Assembly (NCBI RefSeq): GCF_026151205.1
Contig: NC_087074.1
Span: 8,969,726-9,033,725 of the forward strand
DNA from: Bolinopsis microptera
Lineage: Eukaryota; Ctenophora; Tentaculata; Lobata; Bolinopsidae
Direction of reading: 5' to 3'
DNA length: 64,000 nt
The stretch's first letter is position 1; the number at the start of each line of letters is the position of its first letter. The translations under genes were made by a program, and so were the position numbers. This document shows positions 20,583-60,358 of the stretch, piece by piece. The notes under the pieces were generated by a model. It was not told where the DNA came from. It worked only from the letters and a program-made list of their open reading frames with translations, and made no database searches.

Positions 20583-20705
20583 TTGTCATACGTTGTATGA
20601 TCCGCCGCGCACGAGTAAGTGCGCGGCTCTCCCTGTATCATAGAAACTCTACAGGGGTTCGGCCTACTATAATGAAACGACGATGAGGGTCACGACGTGA
20701 CACGA
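20583..20705 (+). mobile_element. Double-hairpin MITE, copy 1
   Basis: 123 bp starting TTGTCATACGTTGTATGA, then a CGCGCAC/GTGCGCG hairpin, ending GACGTGACACGA. Flanks TATTTCCG (20575-20582) and TATTTCCC (20706-20713) form a 7/8 target duplication. Same family as 56913-57028 and 59802-59907. Confidence 0.8.
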
Positions 20706-20805: not shown

Positions 20806-21055
20806 TTGTATCATGTCGTGACCCCCAAAGTTGTAGCGCGATGCGCGTTACTGTGCCGCGCCGCGCACTCAATGAGGCTTCTCACATCTCTCCTGGCTAG
20901 ATCGGCGAGATGCGCTACTGTGCCGCGCCGAGCTGCCATGAATTGACATCGTCAATTAACTGTTAACCCTCACAGTCGTTACACTATATAATAGAGTTTC
21001 TACAATACAGGGGAGCCGCGCACTTGCGCGCGGCAGGTCATACAACGTATGACGA
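20806..21055 (-). mobile_element. Double-hairpin MITE, copy 2 (inverted, carrying a GC-rich insertion)
   Basis: Opposite orientation: starts TTGTATCATGTCGTGACCCC and ends CATACAACGTATGACGA. Flanks ACTTTTAA and ACTTTTCA match 7/8. About 150 bp (about 20832-20980) in the middle is foreign and GC-rich; it matches, inverted, the sequence at 57434-57545. Confidence 0.75.
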
Positions 21056-28603: not shown

Positions 28604-28624
28604 CAGTAGCATCCTTACAGTCTT

Positions 28625-30214
28625 ATGCCTATTGGCTATATGGCTCCTACTAATCGTAAGAAGACAACCCTGAGACCCTTCCAGTGTAATCTCTGCGACT
28701 ATGCAACATCCATAAGCAGCAGCTTGAAAAAGCACAAACGTACTCACACCGGAGAAAGACCTTTTCCTTGTGAAATATGCAATTTTTCTGGAGTAACAAA
28801 GAGCTCTTTAGTAAGGCACATACGCACACACACCAAGGAAAAACCATTTAAATGTAAACTGTGTGACTATTCAGGTGCTCAAAGCAGTTCCTTGAAACTT
28901 CATCAACGTACTCACACTGGAGAGAAACCTTACTCTTGTGACAAATGTGATTATTCTGCGTCAACTAGCAGTTCTATAGATAAACACAAGCTTATCCACA
29001 CGGGGGAAAGACCCTATATTTGTGATATGTGTGATTATTCAGCAGTCCAGAGCAGTGCGTTGACAGTTCACAAACGTACACACACAGGAGAGAAACCTTT
29101 TCATTGTGACATATGCAACCATTCCACTGCAACTAGCAGTGGATTAGCAGTTCACAAACGTACTCATGCCAAGGAACGTCCTTATCAGTGTGATGAATGT
29201 GATTTTAAGACAAAGACACAAAATAGCCTGAAAAAACATAAAAATTCTCATAGCAGAGCTCGACCATATGAGTGCAATCAGTGTGAACACCGTTCAAAGG
29301 ATAAGATTCAATTGAAAATCCACATGCTGTTTCATAGCGGTGATAGGCCCTGGGTTTGTGATAAATGTGATTATGGATCAAAAACTAAACGTCAGCTGAC
29401 TCTTCATTATCGTACTCATACTGGTGAAAAACCTTTTGTTTGTGATATGTGTGACTACAGAGCTGCTCTAAATGAAAACCTGGCAAGGCACATTGAAATA
29501 CATCATTCTGATCGCCAAAGGCTGTTCAAATGTAATGACTGTGATTACAGTGCCTTTTCAAAACCAACATTATTAACCCATATTCAATATATTCACTCAA
29601 ATGAACGACCATTTGAATGTGACAAATGTGAATATAAAGCAAAAACGAAAACAAGTTTAGCAAATCACAAACGAACTCACACTGGATTACTCCCCCACCA
29701 ATGTCCTACTTGTGATCACCGTTTTGCAACTAGACAAACTCTAAAGATCCACTTGGAGACACATTCTGACGAAAGACCATTCACATGTGAATACTGTGAC
29801 TATAGCTCACGCCTGAAGAGAGATCTAAAATCACACATTAAAAGAGTGCACACTCACCCAGGTCCACGTCCATACAAATGTACTTTATGTGATTTCCGAG
29901 CAGCAAAAAATGCCTACTTGCAATACCATATGGTAAAGCACTCTGACGAAAGACCCTTCAAATGTGATTTCTGTAACCATCGAACACGTCGAAAAGTCAA
30001 TCTTAATGTTCATATTAGAGTTAAGCATACTCATGCAGGATTACGTCCCTTTCAGTGCTCAAAATGTGATTTCCAGGCAGCAAGAAAGGGCCACCTCACA
30101 CAGCATTTACTTACCCATTCTGAGGAAAAACCATTTGCTTGTGATCTTTGTGACTTCCGAACACGCTGGAAAAGTGAAGTACCATTACATCGTAAAAGGA
30201 TTCATGCAGAATAG
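28625..30214 (+). CDS. C2H2 zinc-finger protein with 18 tandem fingers
   Basis: 529 aa from ATG 28625; another in-frame ATG lies five codons on. After about 19 residues the whole protein is 18 C2H2 fingers (CxxC...HxxxH or HxxxxH) with TGE(K/R)P-type linkers in the first half and looser SDERPF linkers in the second. Many fingers have the form CDYxAxxxxxLxxHxxxH, typical of animal poly-zinc-finger transcription factors such as the REST/CTCF-like or ZNF families; orthology cannot be assigned. There is no KRAB, BTB or ZAD domain here. An acceptor at 28603 implies at least one upstream exon, probably UTR. DNA binding in the nucleus is inferred from the family. Confidence 0.9.
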   Translation: MPIGYMAPTNRKKTTLRPFQCNLCDYATSISSSLKKHKRTHTGERPFPCEICNFSGVTKSSLVRHIRTHTKEKPFKCKLCDYSGAQSSSLKLHQRTHTGEKPYSCDKCDYSASTSSSIDKHKLIHTGERPYICDMCDYSAVQSSALTVHKRTHTGEKPFHCDICNHSTATSSGLAVHKRTHAKERPYQCDECDFKTKTQNSLKKHKNSHSRARPYECNQCEHRSKDKIQLKIHMLFHSGDRPWVCDKCDYGSKTKRQLTLHYRTHTGEKPFVCDMCDYRAALNENLARHIEIHHSDRQRLFKCNDCDYSAFSKPTLLTHIQYIHSNERPFECDKCEYKAKTKTSLANHKRTHTGLLPHQCPTCDHRFATRQTLKIHLETHSDERPFTCEYCDYSSRLKRDLKSHIKRVHTHPGPRPYKCTLCDFRAAKNAYLQYHMVKHSDERPFKCDFCNHRTRRKVNLNVHIRVKHTHAGLRPFQCSKCDFQAARKGHLTQHLLTHSEEKPFACDLCDFRTRWKSEVPLHRKRIHAE

Positions 30215-30912: not shown

Positions 30913-33558
30913 ATGAGGATAGTTAAACCCTCGTGGGTTCGATCAAAAGAGCCGCTCTTTTCGTGTGATGTTCACCCTGATGGTAAAAAATTTGCTACAG
31001 GAGGACAAGGAGAGGGCAATGGTCGCATCACCATCTGGCATGTAGCACCTGTAGCTCGACAGAAAGCTGAGAAGTCTGCCTTCAAGAAGAGTATTGCCAC
31101 ACTTGAGCACCACCAAGGATGTGTCAACTGTGTTAGGTGGTCCAGCAGTGGTCAATTTCTAGGAAGTGCTAGTGATGATAAAGTAGTGATGATTTGGGGG
31201 GCTGTGAGGTATGAGGGTTCTGAGTCAGAATCTTATAAGTGTCTTCATATCTTGCGTGGACATGACGGTGATGTGCTGGACTTGGCTTGGTCTCCTGATG
31301 ATTCCTACTTAGCATCCTCAAGTATTGATAACAGTGTTATCGTGTGGAATTGTCGGAATTTTCCTGAAAAGCTGACTACATTAAAAGGTCACGATGGTAT
31401 GGTGAAAGGTGTAGTTTGGGATCCTATCGGCAGATATCTGGCCACTCAGTCAACGGATAGAACTTTGCGAGTTTGGCGTCTGTCTGACTGGCAGGAGGAA
31501 GCTAAGATAAGCGACCCATTTTCAAAATGTGGAGGAACTACAACCGTTCTCAGGATCGGTTGGTCGCCTGATGGTCAGTACATCGTGTCCTCTCACGCAA
31601 TGAACAACGAGGGCCCTGTCGCAAAGATTATTGAAAGAGAGGATTGGAAAGCTAGGATGGACTTTGTTGGCCACCGTCGTGCAATAGAGAGTGTCAGATT
31701 CAACCCTCATCTATTCTACTACAACAAAAGACCAGTATCATGTGTAGCTATTGCTGGTAGAGACAGCAGCATATCTGTCTGGTTAACTGCTCTGAAACGG
31801 CCCCTGTTTGTTCTGCATGATGTCTTCACCAGCTCAGTGCTGGACATGTCCTGGACTCCTGATGGATACGGACTTTTTATCTGTTCTCTTGATGGGAGTT
31901 TAGCTTATATTGAGCTGAGCAGTGCTGAAATTGGTAAGACTTTGTCCCCTCAGCAGACAGCAAGCTTGAGAAGTAGTTTGTACGGTTCATTTAAACCGGA
32001 GAAACTCACTATCATAGAAAATCCTGATCTTCTTGAGGATGAAGAAGACCAAAATGGTGATGAGGAATCTTTGAGCAGCGATTCAGAGGAACCAATGGAT
32101 GTAGACACAACAGATGAGCTCAGTACAGAAGCTAGTTCCAAGTCAAGGGAGGGTAGTCTGCAGCCGGAACCTCGTCACCAACATAACGGTTTCTCCACTT
32201 CAAACAACGGGGGATTCGCAAATGCCTTCTCTAATTCAAATGGTAATGGTAAAAACGATAAAATTCTCAGCTCTGTCCCCGACAAACTGTCCTTACGTTT
32301 TGAAAAGCCCTCATCCTCCTCAGTTTCCTCCAAACCTTCCTCCTCAGTATCCTCACCTGTATCCTCTAATGTATTTAATAAGCAAGTAGAGACCACTACT
32401 AAAGACGGCAGAAGGAGAATCATGCCCATTACACTGAAAGAAGTTCCTGTAGCGTCTCAGAAGCCTACTCAAGCAACCAAACGGGTGCTGTTAACCCCAG
32501 TATCTAACTCTAAAGCTTCTGAAGTGCTTCCCTTAGAGACTAAAAGTAGTGCTATTAGTCTCGGTGACATTCCAGTTAAATTGTCAAACCGTTTACAACC
32601 AGTTAGGAAAACTCCTGTTTTAAAAACACAACAGAAATTAGAATCTAAAGACAAACTTTTTGCCTTGATTTCTGGTTGCAGAGTAGAGGTTGATAACATT
32701 CAGAACATGGTGAGTTTCACTCTGGGACCCAAGTCTTGGAAGACAGTTATATACAGCAAGGCTACATCACTCTCTGCGGGAGATAGTTACCTGGTGTTGG
32801 GATGTCAAGATGGCACACTTCATGTTTATAACAAACAGGGGGTTTTAGCATTTCCTGTTCTCAATGTGGGGTGCTCTATTGTAAAGTCTGCTGTTAATGG
32901 GAATTATGTTGTGGTGATCACTAGTGCTCCTGCTTTGGCAATTTGGAACGTTGCTGAGAAGAAGAACGTTCTCAAAGATGAATCTCTTGCGTCATTCATG
33001 ACTGAAAACCAGTCCATCTGCAGCCTGGAGATCACAAAAGAAGGAAATGTAACAATTGGACTGAGCAACAAAACCAGCTACTGTTACAGTTACAGTCTAT
33101 CAGCATGGATGTTGATCGGCCACCACCAACTAGACTCGACCTGGTACAAAGAACTCCAAACCAACAAACAACAAACCACACCCTCTCAAATCCTGTGCCC
33201 CATCCTCCAGACCCACGTCTCCACCCCCGACACCAGCTCCACCAACAGAGACAAGCTCCACCTCAACACTGTCCTCATGTTAGAGCAACAGATCCTGGTA
33301 GCGGAGAACCTGAGTTCTTTCTCCGAGTGCAGGCTGTGGTTATCCTCCCTGGTCCGGTATCTGACCATGCAGCAAGAGGAGGACAGGCTACACTCACTTC
33401 TCCAGCGCCTCATTTCCTCACCTCTACCCACTCTCTTCAACGAGGACAAACTGAGTGTCCTGAAAGAGCTGTTGAAGATAGTTGCTACTAATGTTAATTG
33501 TCAGAGAGTTTATTCCGATTTTAAGCAACAAGTTGAGTGGGCTGAAACTAAGAGGTGA
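30913..33558 (+). CDS. HIRA: HIRA histone chaperone, single-exon 881-aa frame
   Basis: Scaffold of the HIRA/UBN/CABIN1 complex that deposits histone H3.3 independently of replication. The N-terminal 370 residues are a WD40 propeller with near-universal HIRA motifs (HPDGKKFATGGQG, VNCVRWSSSGQFL, DVLDLAWSPDD, GGTTTVLRIGWSPDG, MDFVGHRRAIESV). An acidic segment follows (about 370-405). The ASF1-binding B domain, TTKDGRRRIMPITL, is near residues 492-507. The C-terminal Hira domain (about 590-881) includes LTLQ-type helices and ends RVYSDFKQQVEWAE. Human HIRA is 1017 aa; the shortening is in the disordered middle. No intron interrupts the frame. Confidence 0.95.
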   Translation: MRIVKPSWVRSKEPLFSCDVHPDGKKFATGGQGEGNGRITIWHVAPVARQKAEKSAFKKSIATLEHHQGCVNCVRWSSSGQFLGSASDDKVVMIWGAVRYEGSESESYKCLHILRGHDGDVLDLAWSPDDSYLASSSIDNSVIVWNCRNFPEKLTTLKGHDGMVKGVVWDPIGRYLATQSTDRTLRVWRLSDWQEEAKISDPFSKCGGTTTVLRIGWSPDGQYIVSSHAMNNEGPVAKIIEREDWKARMDFVGHRRAIESVRFNPHLFYYNKRPVSCVAIAGRDSSISVWLTALKRPLFVLHDVFTSSVLDMSWTPDGYGLFICSLDGSLAYIELSSAEIGKTLSPQQTASLRSSLYGSFKPEKLTIIENPDLLEDEEDQNGDEESLSSDSEEPMDVDTTDELSTEASSKSREGSLQPEPRHQHNGFSTSNNGGFANAFSNSNGNGKNDKILSSVPDKLSLRFEKPSSSSVSSKPSSSVSSPVSSNVFNKQVETTTKDGRRRIMPITLKEVPVASQKPTQATKRVLLTPVSNSKASEVLPLETKSSAISLGDIPVKLSNRLQPVRKTPVLKTQQKLESKDKLFALISGCRVEVDNIQNMVSFTLGPKSWKTVIYSKATSLSAGDSYLVLGCQDGTLHVYNKQGVLAFPVLNVGCSIVKSAVNGNYVVVITSAPALAIWNVAEKKNVLKDESLASFMTENQSICSLEITKEGNVTIGLSNKTSYCYSYSLSAWMLIGHHQLDSTWYKELQTNKQQTTPSQILCPILQTHVSTPDTSSTNRDKLHLNTVLMLEQQILVAENLSSFSECRLWLSSLVRYLTMQQEEDRLHSLLQRLISSPLPTLFNEDKLSVLKELLKIVATNVNCQRVYSDFKQQVEWAETKR

Positions 33559-56671: not shown

Positions 56672-56912
56672 CATTTTTGGCGATCGGCGGCCGGCGCGTA
56701 CGAAATTGACCATTGCAATTGACTTCATACATGTTACGTATCACAAATATCAGCGCGAAAAGTGGCATGCAACGTTGAACGTATGTCAACAATTGACGCA
56801 CGTTACAAACCCTCTTCCCGCGCGGCAGCCGGCCGCAAAACCCTCTTTCCGGCCGGCCGGAGTGCACGAGAGAAGTAAACAACGTGAAGAAAATACTATA
56901 CTAAGCTATACT

Positions 56913-57028
56913 TTGTCATACGTTGTATGACCCGCCGCGCACAAAGTGCGCGGCTCCCCCTGTATCGTCAGAACGATAGTGAAACACCCACATAGTGAAA
57001 CGACCGTGGGGGTCGCAACGTGATACAA
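56913..57028 (+). mobile_element. Double-hairpin MITE, copy 3 (intact)
   Basis: 116 bp, TTGTCATACGTTGTATGAC to GTCGCAACGTGATACAA. It is flanked by a perfect 8-bp duplication GCTATACT (56905-56912 and 57029-57036). It contains a CATAC/GTATG stem, a CGCGCAC/GTGCGCG stem and a CCGTGGGGGTCG segment. No coding capacity. Confidence 0.92.
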
Positions 57029-57093
57029 GCTATACTAATTCAGAAAGCTGAAAACGGTGTCATGTTATTGTATGTTCAAGATTTAATATACCC

Positions 57094-57545: not shown

Positions 57546-57619
57546 TAACGGTTGACCGTTGTTAATGATCTGGCCCAGCGTGCGCTACTTCGAAGAAATT
57601 TAGACGAGTAACATCCGTC

Positions 57620-58710
57620 TTGTATCACGTTGCGACCCCCACGGTCGTTTCACTATGTGGGTGTCAAGTAATTTGCGAGCCGCACGAGAAATCTCAGGTG
57701 CAACTGTACGAGAAGAACTCGCGTGCGCGAAGCGATAATCTCAGTGCTAAATAGTTACTGCGTGCACTGTAAAGTCACATTTAGAAAGTTCCAGACTATT
57801 TGATGTTGTGTGTTAACTTTTTTGATGATGTGATCGCTATGTTGACAAAAAGCTTTTGTTTCTGGGCTCTGGCTTTTTAAATTTTTGACTTGCAGCACTT
57901 TCTTAATCAATTGTTCTTACTTGCTTACATGGGGACCCTGGGGTTTACTGTATAAATACTTAAGTCTTAATATTGAGACTATTAAATCAGTTAAAGCCAT
58001 AATTTTAGTCACAATATTTACAGAATGGAGAATAATACATAAGATTTAACAGAACTAAAATTCATCTGTATAATAAACTAACAGTAACAATATTACATAC
58101 GTCAGTGCTTCAAAGAACTATGTTTTTGAAGAAGTTTCAAAGTTAATATTTGGGTCCATATCGGGTAAAACTATTAAAGGGCATGATAACAGGAAAATAG
58201 ACTGATATCATACTGTTTCCGGTCCAGTAGCCAAATCTCTAGACGGGTACTCTGTTACTTGTCGTTTGTGATAACATAAAGAGGTGGTATATGGTAGATA
58301 TTTATATAGCATACTCTACAATCTAGATCTTTAAAACGAAGTAAGAGTTGTCACGCCTATATTAGTCGTTTATCTCTCCGTTAAATCTACAATTCTAACA
58401 TCATTGGGTAGCATGAGACAAGCGGAAAAAAGACATACGAATAGATTTCAAGCTCATAAAGGATTGTTGTTGGAGACCAGAGATTTTAAACTAAAGTTTG
58501 ATAGTCGATGTTCTTCTGTAGAATTTGAGTCCAGGTAGAGCACTTTCGTTCGACAAAGTCCAACCTTAGGGTTTGTCGAACTACAGTTGTACGTGTCGAA
58601 CTTGAGTATGTGTACCGAATTTACCGTGGTAAAAAACATCTTCACATCGTTCTGACGATACAGGGGGAGCCGCGCACTTCGTGCGCGGCGGGTCATACAA
58701 CGTATGACAA
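57620..58710 (-). mobile_element. Double-hairpin MITE, copy 4, split by about 1 kb
   Basis: Outer ends TTGTATCACGTTGCGACCCC (57620) and CATACAACGTATGACAA (to 58710), with a perfect 8-bp duplication CATCCGTC (57612-57619 and 58711-58718). The family consensus is interrupted after GTGGGTGT near 57663 and resumes near 58638. The roughly 970 bp between are later-inserted AT-rich sequence without a gene. The target is itself a copy of the foldback family at 56386. Confidence 0.85.
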
Positions 58711-58847
58711 CATCCGTCAACGTTAACGGGTGATACTCGTAAAATATCTGTTCCATATATTGGACCGTCGACGAGTCCAACTCGGCGCGCGTCCTGGTAG
58801 GTTGTAAACCTACAACCGCGGCGCGGCACAGTAACGCATCGAACTAT

Positions 58848-59755: not shown

Positions 59756-59801
59756 ACAGCGTGTGTCGACAAATTTCAATGCGCAATTAAAATGAAAATA
59801 A

Positions 59802-59907
59802 TTGTCATACGTTGTATGATCCGCCGCGCACGAAGTGCGCGGCTCTCGGCCCCTGTATCGTCAGGACGATATAGTGAAACGACCGTGGGGGTCGCAACAT
59901 GATACAA
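59802..59907 (+). mobile_element. Double-hairpin MITE, copy 5 (intact)
   Basis: 106 bp, TTGTCATACGTTGTATGATC to GTCGCAACATGATACAA. Perfect 8-bp duplication GAAAATAA (59794-59801 and 59908-59915). Same hairpin layout as copy 3. Confidence 0.92.
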
Positions 59908-60358
59908 GAAAATAATGCGCACAAAGCAAAAAAATAAAAGTTCATTGGTTAAGGTCGATGGTGCGCGTCAGTCAAAGTAAAAACTAGTTACAGTTAAAAT
60001 ATTAAAACTTGATGACAGCTGGCGGTATTTTGTGTGGTACGCCATCGTATACATCATATCCGTGTGCATTTGTTTCAGTTATATCTTCCAGTTTGACGGA
60101 TGATTATTAGATAAAAGTTATAAACAACAAACAAGGATTCTTAAAATACAACAAATTTCAGCTTAAATATATGAGGAAGGGGAGCCTTCGAAATCTTGCC
60201 AGACACTATACGACCCATCATCTCATCGTAAATGGTAAAGATGAAAGAGCATGATGCAGATGGAGGGTTGCACACGAAGTTGTACAGTTTAAATCTGTAT
60301 CATTGAAATCTAGACTGCATGGAAAACATCCAATATTATAATCAATAATCTTATCTCT
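59908..60358. other. Spacer
   Basis: AT-rich, no gene. It ends with the target sequence TCTTATCTCT of the following LINE. Confidence 0.35.

Follow-up and report, generated by a model that had tools for sequence, protein, structure and literature searches.

The 116-bp repeat at positions 56913..57028 (+) of the window, by which we mean the whole 64,000-nucleotide stretch analysed here (C3:8969726-9033725), is a short, ends-only copy of lineage A2 (CAGA...CACATAG) with a perfect 8-bp target site duplication (TSD), GCTATACT, on its left (56905..56912) and on its right (57029..57036). The origin of miniature from full-length transposons is usually inferred from one founder deletion, and the repeat raises the question of whether its family arose in this way. 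A genome search with the window copy and a tabulation of the flanks upheld a high-copy family with 8-bp TSDs: the left terminal 18-mer has 2119 exact occurrences in the genome (264,652,675 bases in 232 contigs, 264.65 Mb) and its reversed control none. When up to three mismatches are allowed, the 18-nt left end has seven matches in the window, against 0.07 expected. Five of these (0-1 mismatch) are the left ends of five family elements, and the other two (52848 and 55902, with 3 mismatches each) are apparently not family members.

The original prediction listed five copies of 106-123 bp with 8-bp duplications, three of them perfect, and the sequences at all five places are as described: the duplications at 56913, 57620 and 59802 are perfect and those at 20583 and 20806 match at 7/8. 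The size range holds for 20583, 56913 and 59802, but 20806 and 57620 are the right ends of longer minus-strand elements of 250 bp and 1091 bp. The copy at 59802..59907 (+) belongs to lineage A1 (CAGG), has the junction 'ATA' and lies between perfect duplications of GAAAATAA (59794-59801 and 59908-59915). Two copies, each of an older lineage, have 7/8 TSDs, the short one at 20583..20705 (+) between TATTTCCG and TATTTCCC, and the 250-bp one at 20806..21055 (-), with extra sequence near its right end, between TGAAAAGT and TTAAAAGT. The 1091-bp copy (57620..58710, -) joins the left ~65 nt to the rightmost ~1 kb of a long parent, with the perfect TSD GACGGATG/GACGGATG (= CATCCGTC) at 57612-57619 and 58711-58718. 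Its host is another dispersed repeat (GACGGATGTTACTCGTCTAAATTTCTTCGAAGTAGCGC..., window 57560-57619 and 58711-58780), which also carries a family copy at L030 2547. Elsewhere in the window, a long C2H2 zinc-finger array and a stop-free 881-aa reading frame of the HIRA-like WD40 type lie side by side (28610-30211 and 30913-33555).

The imperfect inverted ends, TTGT...ACAA, were confirmed as predicted (TTGTCATACGTTG and TTGTATCACGTTG match at 10/13 positions), and the family shows the hallmarks of MITEs, being short, non-coding and of high copy number, with inverted (imperfect) ends and a constant TSD. The TSD was examined in 51 loci: the 30 sequences that match the window copy best, 20 C1 stretches (each of 10 kb around an exact 18-mer and chosen in coordinate order) and the window; as L001 is the window copy itself, this count includes that copy twice. 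Among 68 pairs of left and right ends in these loci, 48 have a TSD of 8/8, 8 of 7/8 and 12 of fewer. In a recount with L001 dropped and small end shifts allowed, 58 of 68 pairs match at 7/8 or better, and subtraction of two repeat reads (one of the same locus, one in a segmental duplication) leaves 56 sites. The duplication is exactly 8 bp long in 46 of these 56 sites, while each length from 4 to 7 and from 9 to 12 occurs in 0-1. Copies without 8-bp duplications and ends reaching beyond TTGT/ACAA had been named beforehand as speaking against the prediction; both were looked for, the former across the loci, and neither objection was borne out. The 56 sites share G at TSD position 1 and C at position 8, as well as A and C at -4/-3 and G and T at 12/13 outside the duplication. 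The site matrix correlates at 0.66 with its own reverse complement, a value reached by 1/1000 column shuffles, and the target preference is palindromic, reading alike on both strands.

Longer elements with the same ends, proposed as something to look for, exist and measure 10.8-61 kb. Eight long copies were read at both ends, and seven of them have perfect TSDs (compared by eye, with lengths computed by hand from coordinates). Identical 8-bp flanks enclose C1 (~48.5 kb, CAATGCGC), C4 (~60.8 kb, CGTTTGAC), C2 (10.8 kb, GTGATTTT), C1b (10.8 kb, TGAAGGCA), C14 (11.6 kb, AGGTAGAA), C7 (12.8 kb, AGGGCGCC) and C12 (11.1 kb, GTTTAAAG); the flanks of C10 (11.9 kb) are off by one T and match if one T is shared. 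The interiors of the 1091-bp copy and of L036 have many genome regions in common, in the same order and ~10.7 kb apart in compact copies. Within its 9.7 kb, L036 has a left end but no right end. It had been taken as a truncated copy, a reading that was rejected because the matching right end, bordered by the same TSD, is located ~48.5 kb away. The sequence covered for the two giants, C1 and C4, comprises their ends plus the 9.7 kb of L036; over the stretches compared they are 98-99% identical and carry a nested insert at the same place, but their TSDs differ, and hence a giant element already holding the insert probably moved. The insert in the 48.5-kb element contains a 524-aa frame (L036 2802-4373, +) that resembles, by eye, a reverse transcriptase of the Penelope type ending in GIY-YIG; a Pfam search with this frame returned no family at E 0.1, and its DNA recurs at many other genome places.

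The sequence just inside the long left end was found at 27 genome places (25 exact, up to 3 mismatches, control 0), compared with 2119 left termini; these 27 are matches to the inner left boundary and as such candidate long copies, and more diverged long copies escape the count. A third marker pair of long copies combines GAAGACGC with CACATAG and is found again in a single short copy, L049. This copy was considered as a hybrid of two lineages, which was rejected because the long copies C2 and C1b bear the same pair. Two side observations concern other elements: long copies of the B lineage contain several copies of a ~128-bp segment (C11:15151617-15157573 and C8:9729202-9731647), and the element at L046 5159-6415 (+) is interrupted by a repeat in which CAGAAAAGGCAGTAAGTCC occurs several times in both orientations.

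The ends were described originally as two stems, and here the count has to be changed: the left end consists of three consecutive hairpins and the right end adds one more. In the left end of a long B-lineage copy, the three hairpins have stems of 7, 9 and 14 bp with 3-nt loops and end at nt 74, and this end folds at -35.2 kcal/mol, compared to -12.3 +/- 2.35 in shuffles (z -9.7). The right-end hairpin is weaker (z -1.9), with a fold that 9 of 200 shuffles equal. In lineages A1 and A2, hairpin 3 is less perfectly paired than in the B lineage. In the window copy, folding places hairpin 1 (stem GTCATAC/GTATGAC) at 56915..56931 (+), hairpin 2 (stem GCCGCGCAC/GTGCGCGGC) at 56934..56954 (+), the remains of hairpin 3 (TATCGT/ACGATA) at 56963..56978 (+) and the right-end hairpin (CGACC/GGTCG) at 57001..57015 (+); past these hairpin 3 remains, the sequence of long parents continues to ...AAAGGGGG. 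Across the 67 left ends compared, hairpins 1 and 2 have nearly invariant stems, and two-sided Watson-Crick changes affect one hairpin 2 pair in one sequence and one hairpin 3 pair in two sequences, apart from which hairpin 3 is often broken. The suggestion that the hairpins could be RNA structural signals thus finds no support, since stem pairs that are almost invariant, with few two-sided changes, provide no argument for a role in RNA. A further GC-rich repeat of small size (TTGCTCTA...GGTGAA), whole or in fragments, lies in or near hairpin 1 at L030 2547(-), L045 301(+) and L046 4979(-); by eye it has duplications of ~8-9 bp (e.g., GTATGACC in L046), and it is possibly a sibling MITE family.

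The short copies analysed are the left ~66-74 nt of the parents fused to the right ~37-48 nt. When 49 of them are aligned, the left and right parts are near-constant and the centre differs from copy to copy. Junctions were analysed in the 31 A1/A2 copies to which the anchors could be fitted, and 18 of the 49 were excluded. Short gaps are under-represented in this set, as 26 of the 31 had been picked out by their close similarity to the 116-bp window copy. These 31 copies have 30 distinct junction strings, and the only repeated one is shared by L011 and L017, which belong to different lineages. Among 76 pairs of copies with identical ends, none have the same junction and one is within two changes. 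Beyond the invariant ends, the copies retain 1-9 parent bases on the left (sd 2.3) and 1-11 on the right (sd 2.2), so that the breakpoints are confined to ~10 nt per side. Retention is graded, with at least 5 nt kept on the right in 20/31 and at least 4 nt on the left in 11/31; the parent-left bases AAAGGGGG, seen in L036, C7 and C14, are among those retained in some short copies.

Insertions are present at the junction in 26 of the 31 copies. For the 15 insertions of at least 5 nt, the summed longest match to the ends, on either strand, is 118, compared to 68.4 +/- 3.3 for shuffled insertions, and none of 2000 shuffles of the same letters reached it. Joining of the polymerase-theta or fold-back type characteristically leaves copies of adjacent sequence, both direct and inverted. 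The junction of the window copy, AGTGAAACACCCACATA (56978..56994, +), consists of 1 nt of the left parent, a 5-nt templated insertion and 11 nt of the right parent, and a 30-mer spanning it occurs once genome-wide. At L043 9552-9700 (-), right-end fragments occur in triplicate, and this copy is an extreme templated insertion. Other breakpoints exist in the 1091-bp window copy and in L047 (269 bp).

A set less biased by similarity, the C1 stretches together with the window, comprises 26 pairs, 22 of them with a TSD of at least 7/8 and 21 shorter than 160 bp. These 21 short copies have 20 distinct middles, a distinctness that is partly not junctional, as the middles include lineage differences and mutations. 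The sole pair with identical middles, L035/L037, lies within a 1.36-kb segmental duplication at 96%, and its members differ by a SNP in the ends while the junction is kept, which shows that a junction can persist while ends mutate. Genome-wide, 249 places match the A1/A2 short-copy pattern, in which exact anchors are separated by 1-30 nt. In the first 100 listed of these (C1 to C4), a sample selected independently of similarity to the window copy, the gap is 1 nt in 17, 3 nt in 21 and of another length in 62; the 38 with gaps of 1 or 3 nt may have shared junctions. L031, with a disrupted right end, and L040 have the same gap-1 junction. This minority of simple 1- and 3-nt gaps may represent recurrent microhomology joints or true amplified MITEs. 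The markers of the two ends go together in short copies: 10 of 11 CAGA copies end in ACATA and none in CCATA, and 10 of 20 CAGG copies end in CCATA and none in ACATA. Long copies bear the same start and end pairs.

The MITE assignment thus stands in respect of the TTGT...ACAA ends, the exact 8-bp TSDs and the transposase-type nature of the repeat, but not as an ordinary founder-amplified MITE: the junctions are distinct in most sampled copies, with a possible exception in the gap-1 and gap-3 classes (38/100 listed). Long and short copies have their ends, lineage markers and TSD length in common, and the junctions of the short copies are diverse, narrowly placed and often accompanied by templated insertions. 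The graded variation in how much parental sequence survives at either side of the junctions analysed speaks for many separate deletions of long parents rather than one deleted founder. We therefore consider it probable, though by no means certain, that the family consists of very large cut-and-paste DNA transposons (10.8-61 kb, with 8-bp TSDs) whose short copies are mostly ends-only remnants that arose separately.

How the remnants would form can be outlined as follows. A putative transposase would bind the hairpin-structured ends and, around transposition, the interior would be cut out or lost as far as the bases of left hairpin 3 and the right hairpin, a boundary probably fixed by protection of the ends within the bound complex. 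The two ends would remain at the target with a normal 8-bp duplication, and the gap would be closed by polymerase-theta-like end joining (cf. PMC5466332 and PMC11724301), which would leave a private junction. Since the transposase itself is unseen, end protection is a conjecture; the narrow breakpoints at the hairpin bases suggest a protected end complex, which we prefer, or else cruciform cutting or gap repair. The interior may have been lost during transposition, as outlined, or later. More tentatively, and with the odds somewhat against it, ends-only transposition could be the normal outcome, in which the complex inserts the two protected hairpin ends and sheds the interior and the cell joins the ends; every miniature copy would then be an individually barcoded transposition event.

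One alternative concerns the class of the parent and not the junctions: the parent could belong to the hAT, P, MULE, KDZ or Merlin transposons and simply have escaped recognition, which we regard as rather unlikely. The family's TSD is of the 8-bp length typical of hAT, and domains of both hAT and MULE transposases are present in the genome. In the hAT terminal consensus, A stands at position 2 and G at position 5, and Merlin elements have ends that begin with GG and an IS1595-type transposase; the ends TTGTC and TTGTA of the present family do not fit either. A length of 8 bp agrees with hAT and P elements (PMC3706591) and with Zisupton, of the KDZ class (PMC12730594). By eye, none of the hAT dimer domains, at 150 or more places (150 of 365 candidates scored), and none of the MULE domains, at 88 places (131/131 candidates scored, one further member untraced), fall within the long spans, a comparison limited by the spans being partly known and by the long copies being possibly non-autonomous. 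Genome searches for the P and KDZ transposase domains gave no matches, and their controls were silent too. No Pfam family was returned for nine open segments of L036, of which one comes from the nested insert and the other eight lie within the parent body or at its edge, and no transposase was found in the long-copy sequence covered, about half of a 10.8-kb parent. A link to the genome's hAT elements was also rejected, as the 421-bp 3' flanks of 12 hAT places are without a TTGT/ACAA end; the best resemblance, 9/11 bases in L060, was taken as chance. Several hAT subfamilies in L051-L062 have dense GC-rich repeats (CCGAGGCCGAGG, TCCGGTCCGG and CGCCGCCGCC) shortly downstream of the dimer domain.

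The other alternatives address the junctions and are partly compatible with each other and with separate ends-only remnants. In abortive gap repair, reportedly proposed for maize Ds, a long element excises, the donor gap is copied inward from the ends of the sister, and the copying aborts, after which the short tracts are end-joined. This accounts for the templated filler and the retained TSDs, and internal deletion derivatives of Ac/Ds with variable filler are known (PMC3260210). However, it predicts scattered stops, whereas the breakpoints here fall within ~10 nt in parents of at least 10.8 kb, and it requires every short copy to have once been a separate long insertion, and so we judge it unlikely. 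Hairpin-induced collapse, in which the end palindromes of an inserted long element extrude as cruciforms and are cut near their bases, the interior being lost and the ends joined, would explain why the left breakpoints map to the inner arm of hairpin 3 and the right ones to the outer arm of the right-end hairpin, and the strong fold of the B-lineage left end (stems of 7, 9 and 14 bp, z -9.7) agrees with it. It appears more doubtful still, as it requires cuts at both ends, at least 10 kb apart, the right hairpin is weak (z -1.9), and hairpin 2, which is also strong, is seldom a breakpoint in the aligned copies. It is improbable that the copies are an ordinary founder-amplified MITE with a centre made hypervariable by slippage or template switching after insertion: the junction does adjoin hairpins and direct repeats and the gap-1 and gap-3 classes are common, but graded parent retention on both sides is not expected from one deleted founder, and the sole duplicated pair with a SNP in its ends retains its junction.

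Under the preferred reading of separate ends-only remnants, the deletion seems to have been repeated here, with reproducible breakpoints and private repair scars. Repeated deletions would open MITE birth to statistical study, since the copies bear barcodes, and suggest that the structure of the ends or a bound transposase fixes the place of DNA loss. The long copies also suggest that DNA transposons of about 50-60 kb are mobile in an animal that probably branched early. In titles and the beginnings of abstracts, mostly of papers outside subscription journals, we found no account of this family or of private MITE junctions at such a scale, and searches with the end sequences gave only unrelated titles among the matches listed. 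In Mnemiopsis, a GC-rich loop-anchor motif and DNA-transposon insertions in >90% of looped promoter regions are described (PMC12221973); a link between this motif and the GC-rich hairpins of the family is only an idea.

Among known systems, V(D)J coding joints combine fixed ends with a private joint, small trimming and added bases, and the short copies resemble them, by analogy only, in their fixed ends and their private, trimmed and filled joint. The unclassified 8-bp-TSD MITEs called 'DNA8' in Repbase are likewise short, non-coding and of high copy number, but in the present family the centre differs between most sampled copies. Zisupton/KDZ elements share 8-bp TSDs with the family (PMC12730594), a resemblance in TSD length alone. 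Polymerase-theta joining after P-element excision in Drosophila (cf. PMC5466332) likewise produces joints marked by short microhomology and templated insertions; there, the joint lies at the empty donor site, whereas here it lies between the two transposon ends. As in the case of maize Ac/Ds, the TSD is 8 bp long and short derivatives come from the ends of a longer element, with variable filler in some classes (PMC3260210). Unlike Ac/Ds, however, the family has parents of 10.8-61 kb, ends of the form TTGT...ACAA, breakpoints that recur within ~10 nt, and derivatives of ~100 bp that number in the hundreds (249 matches for A1/A2 alone).
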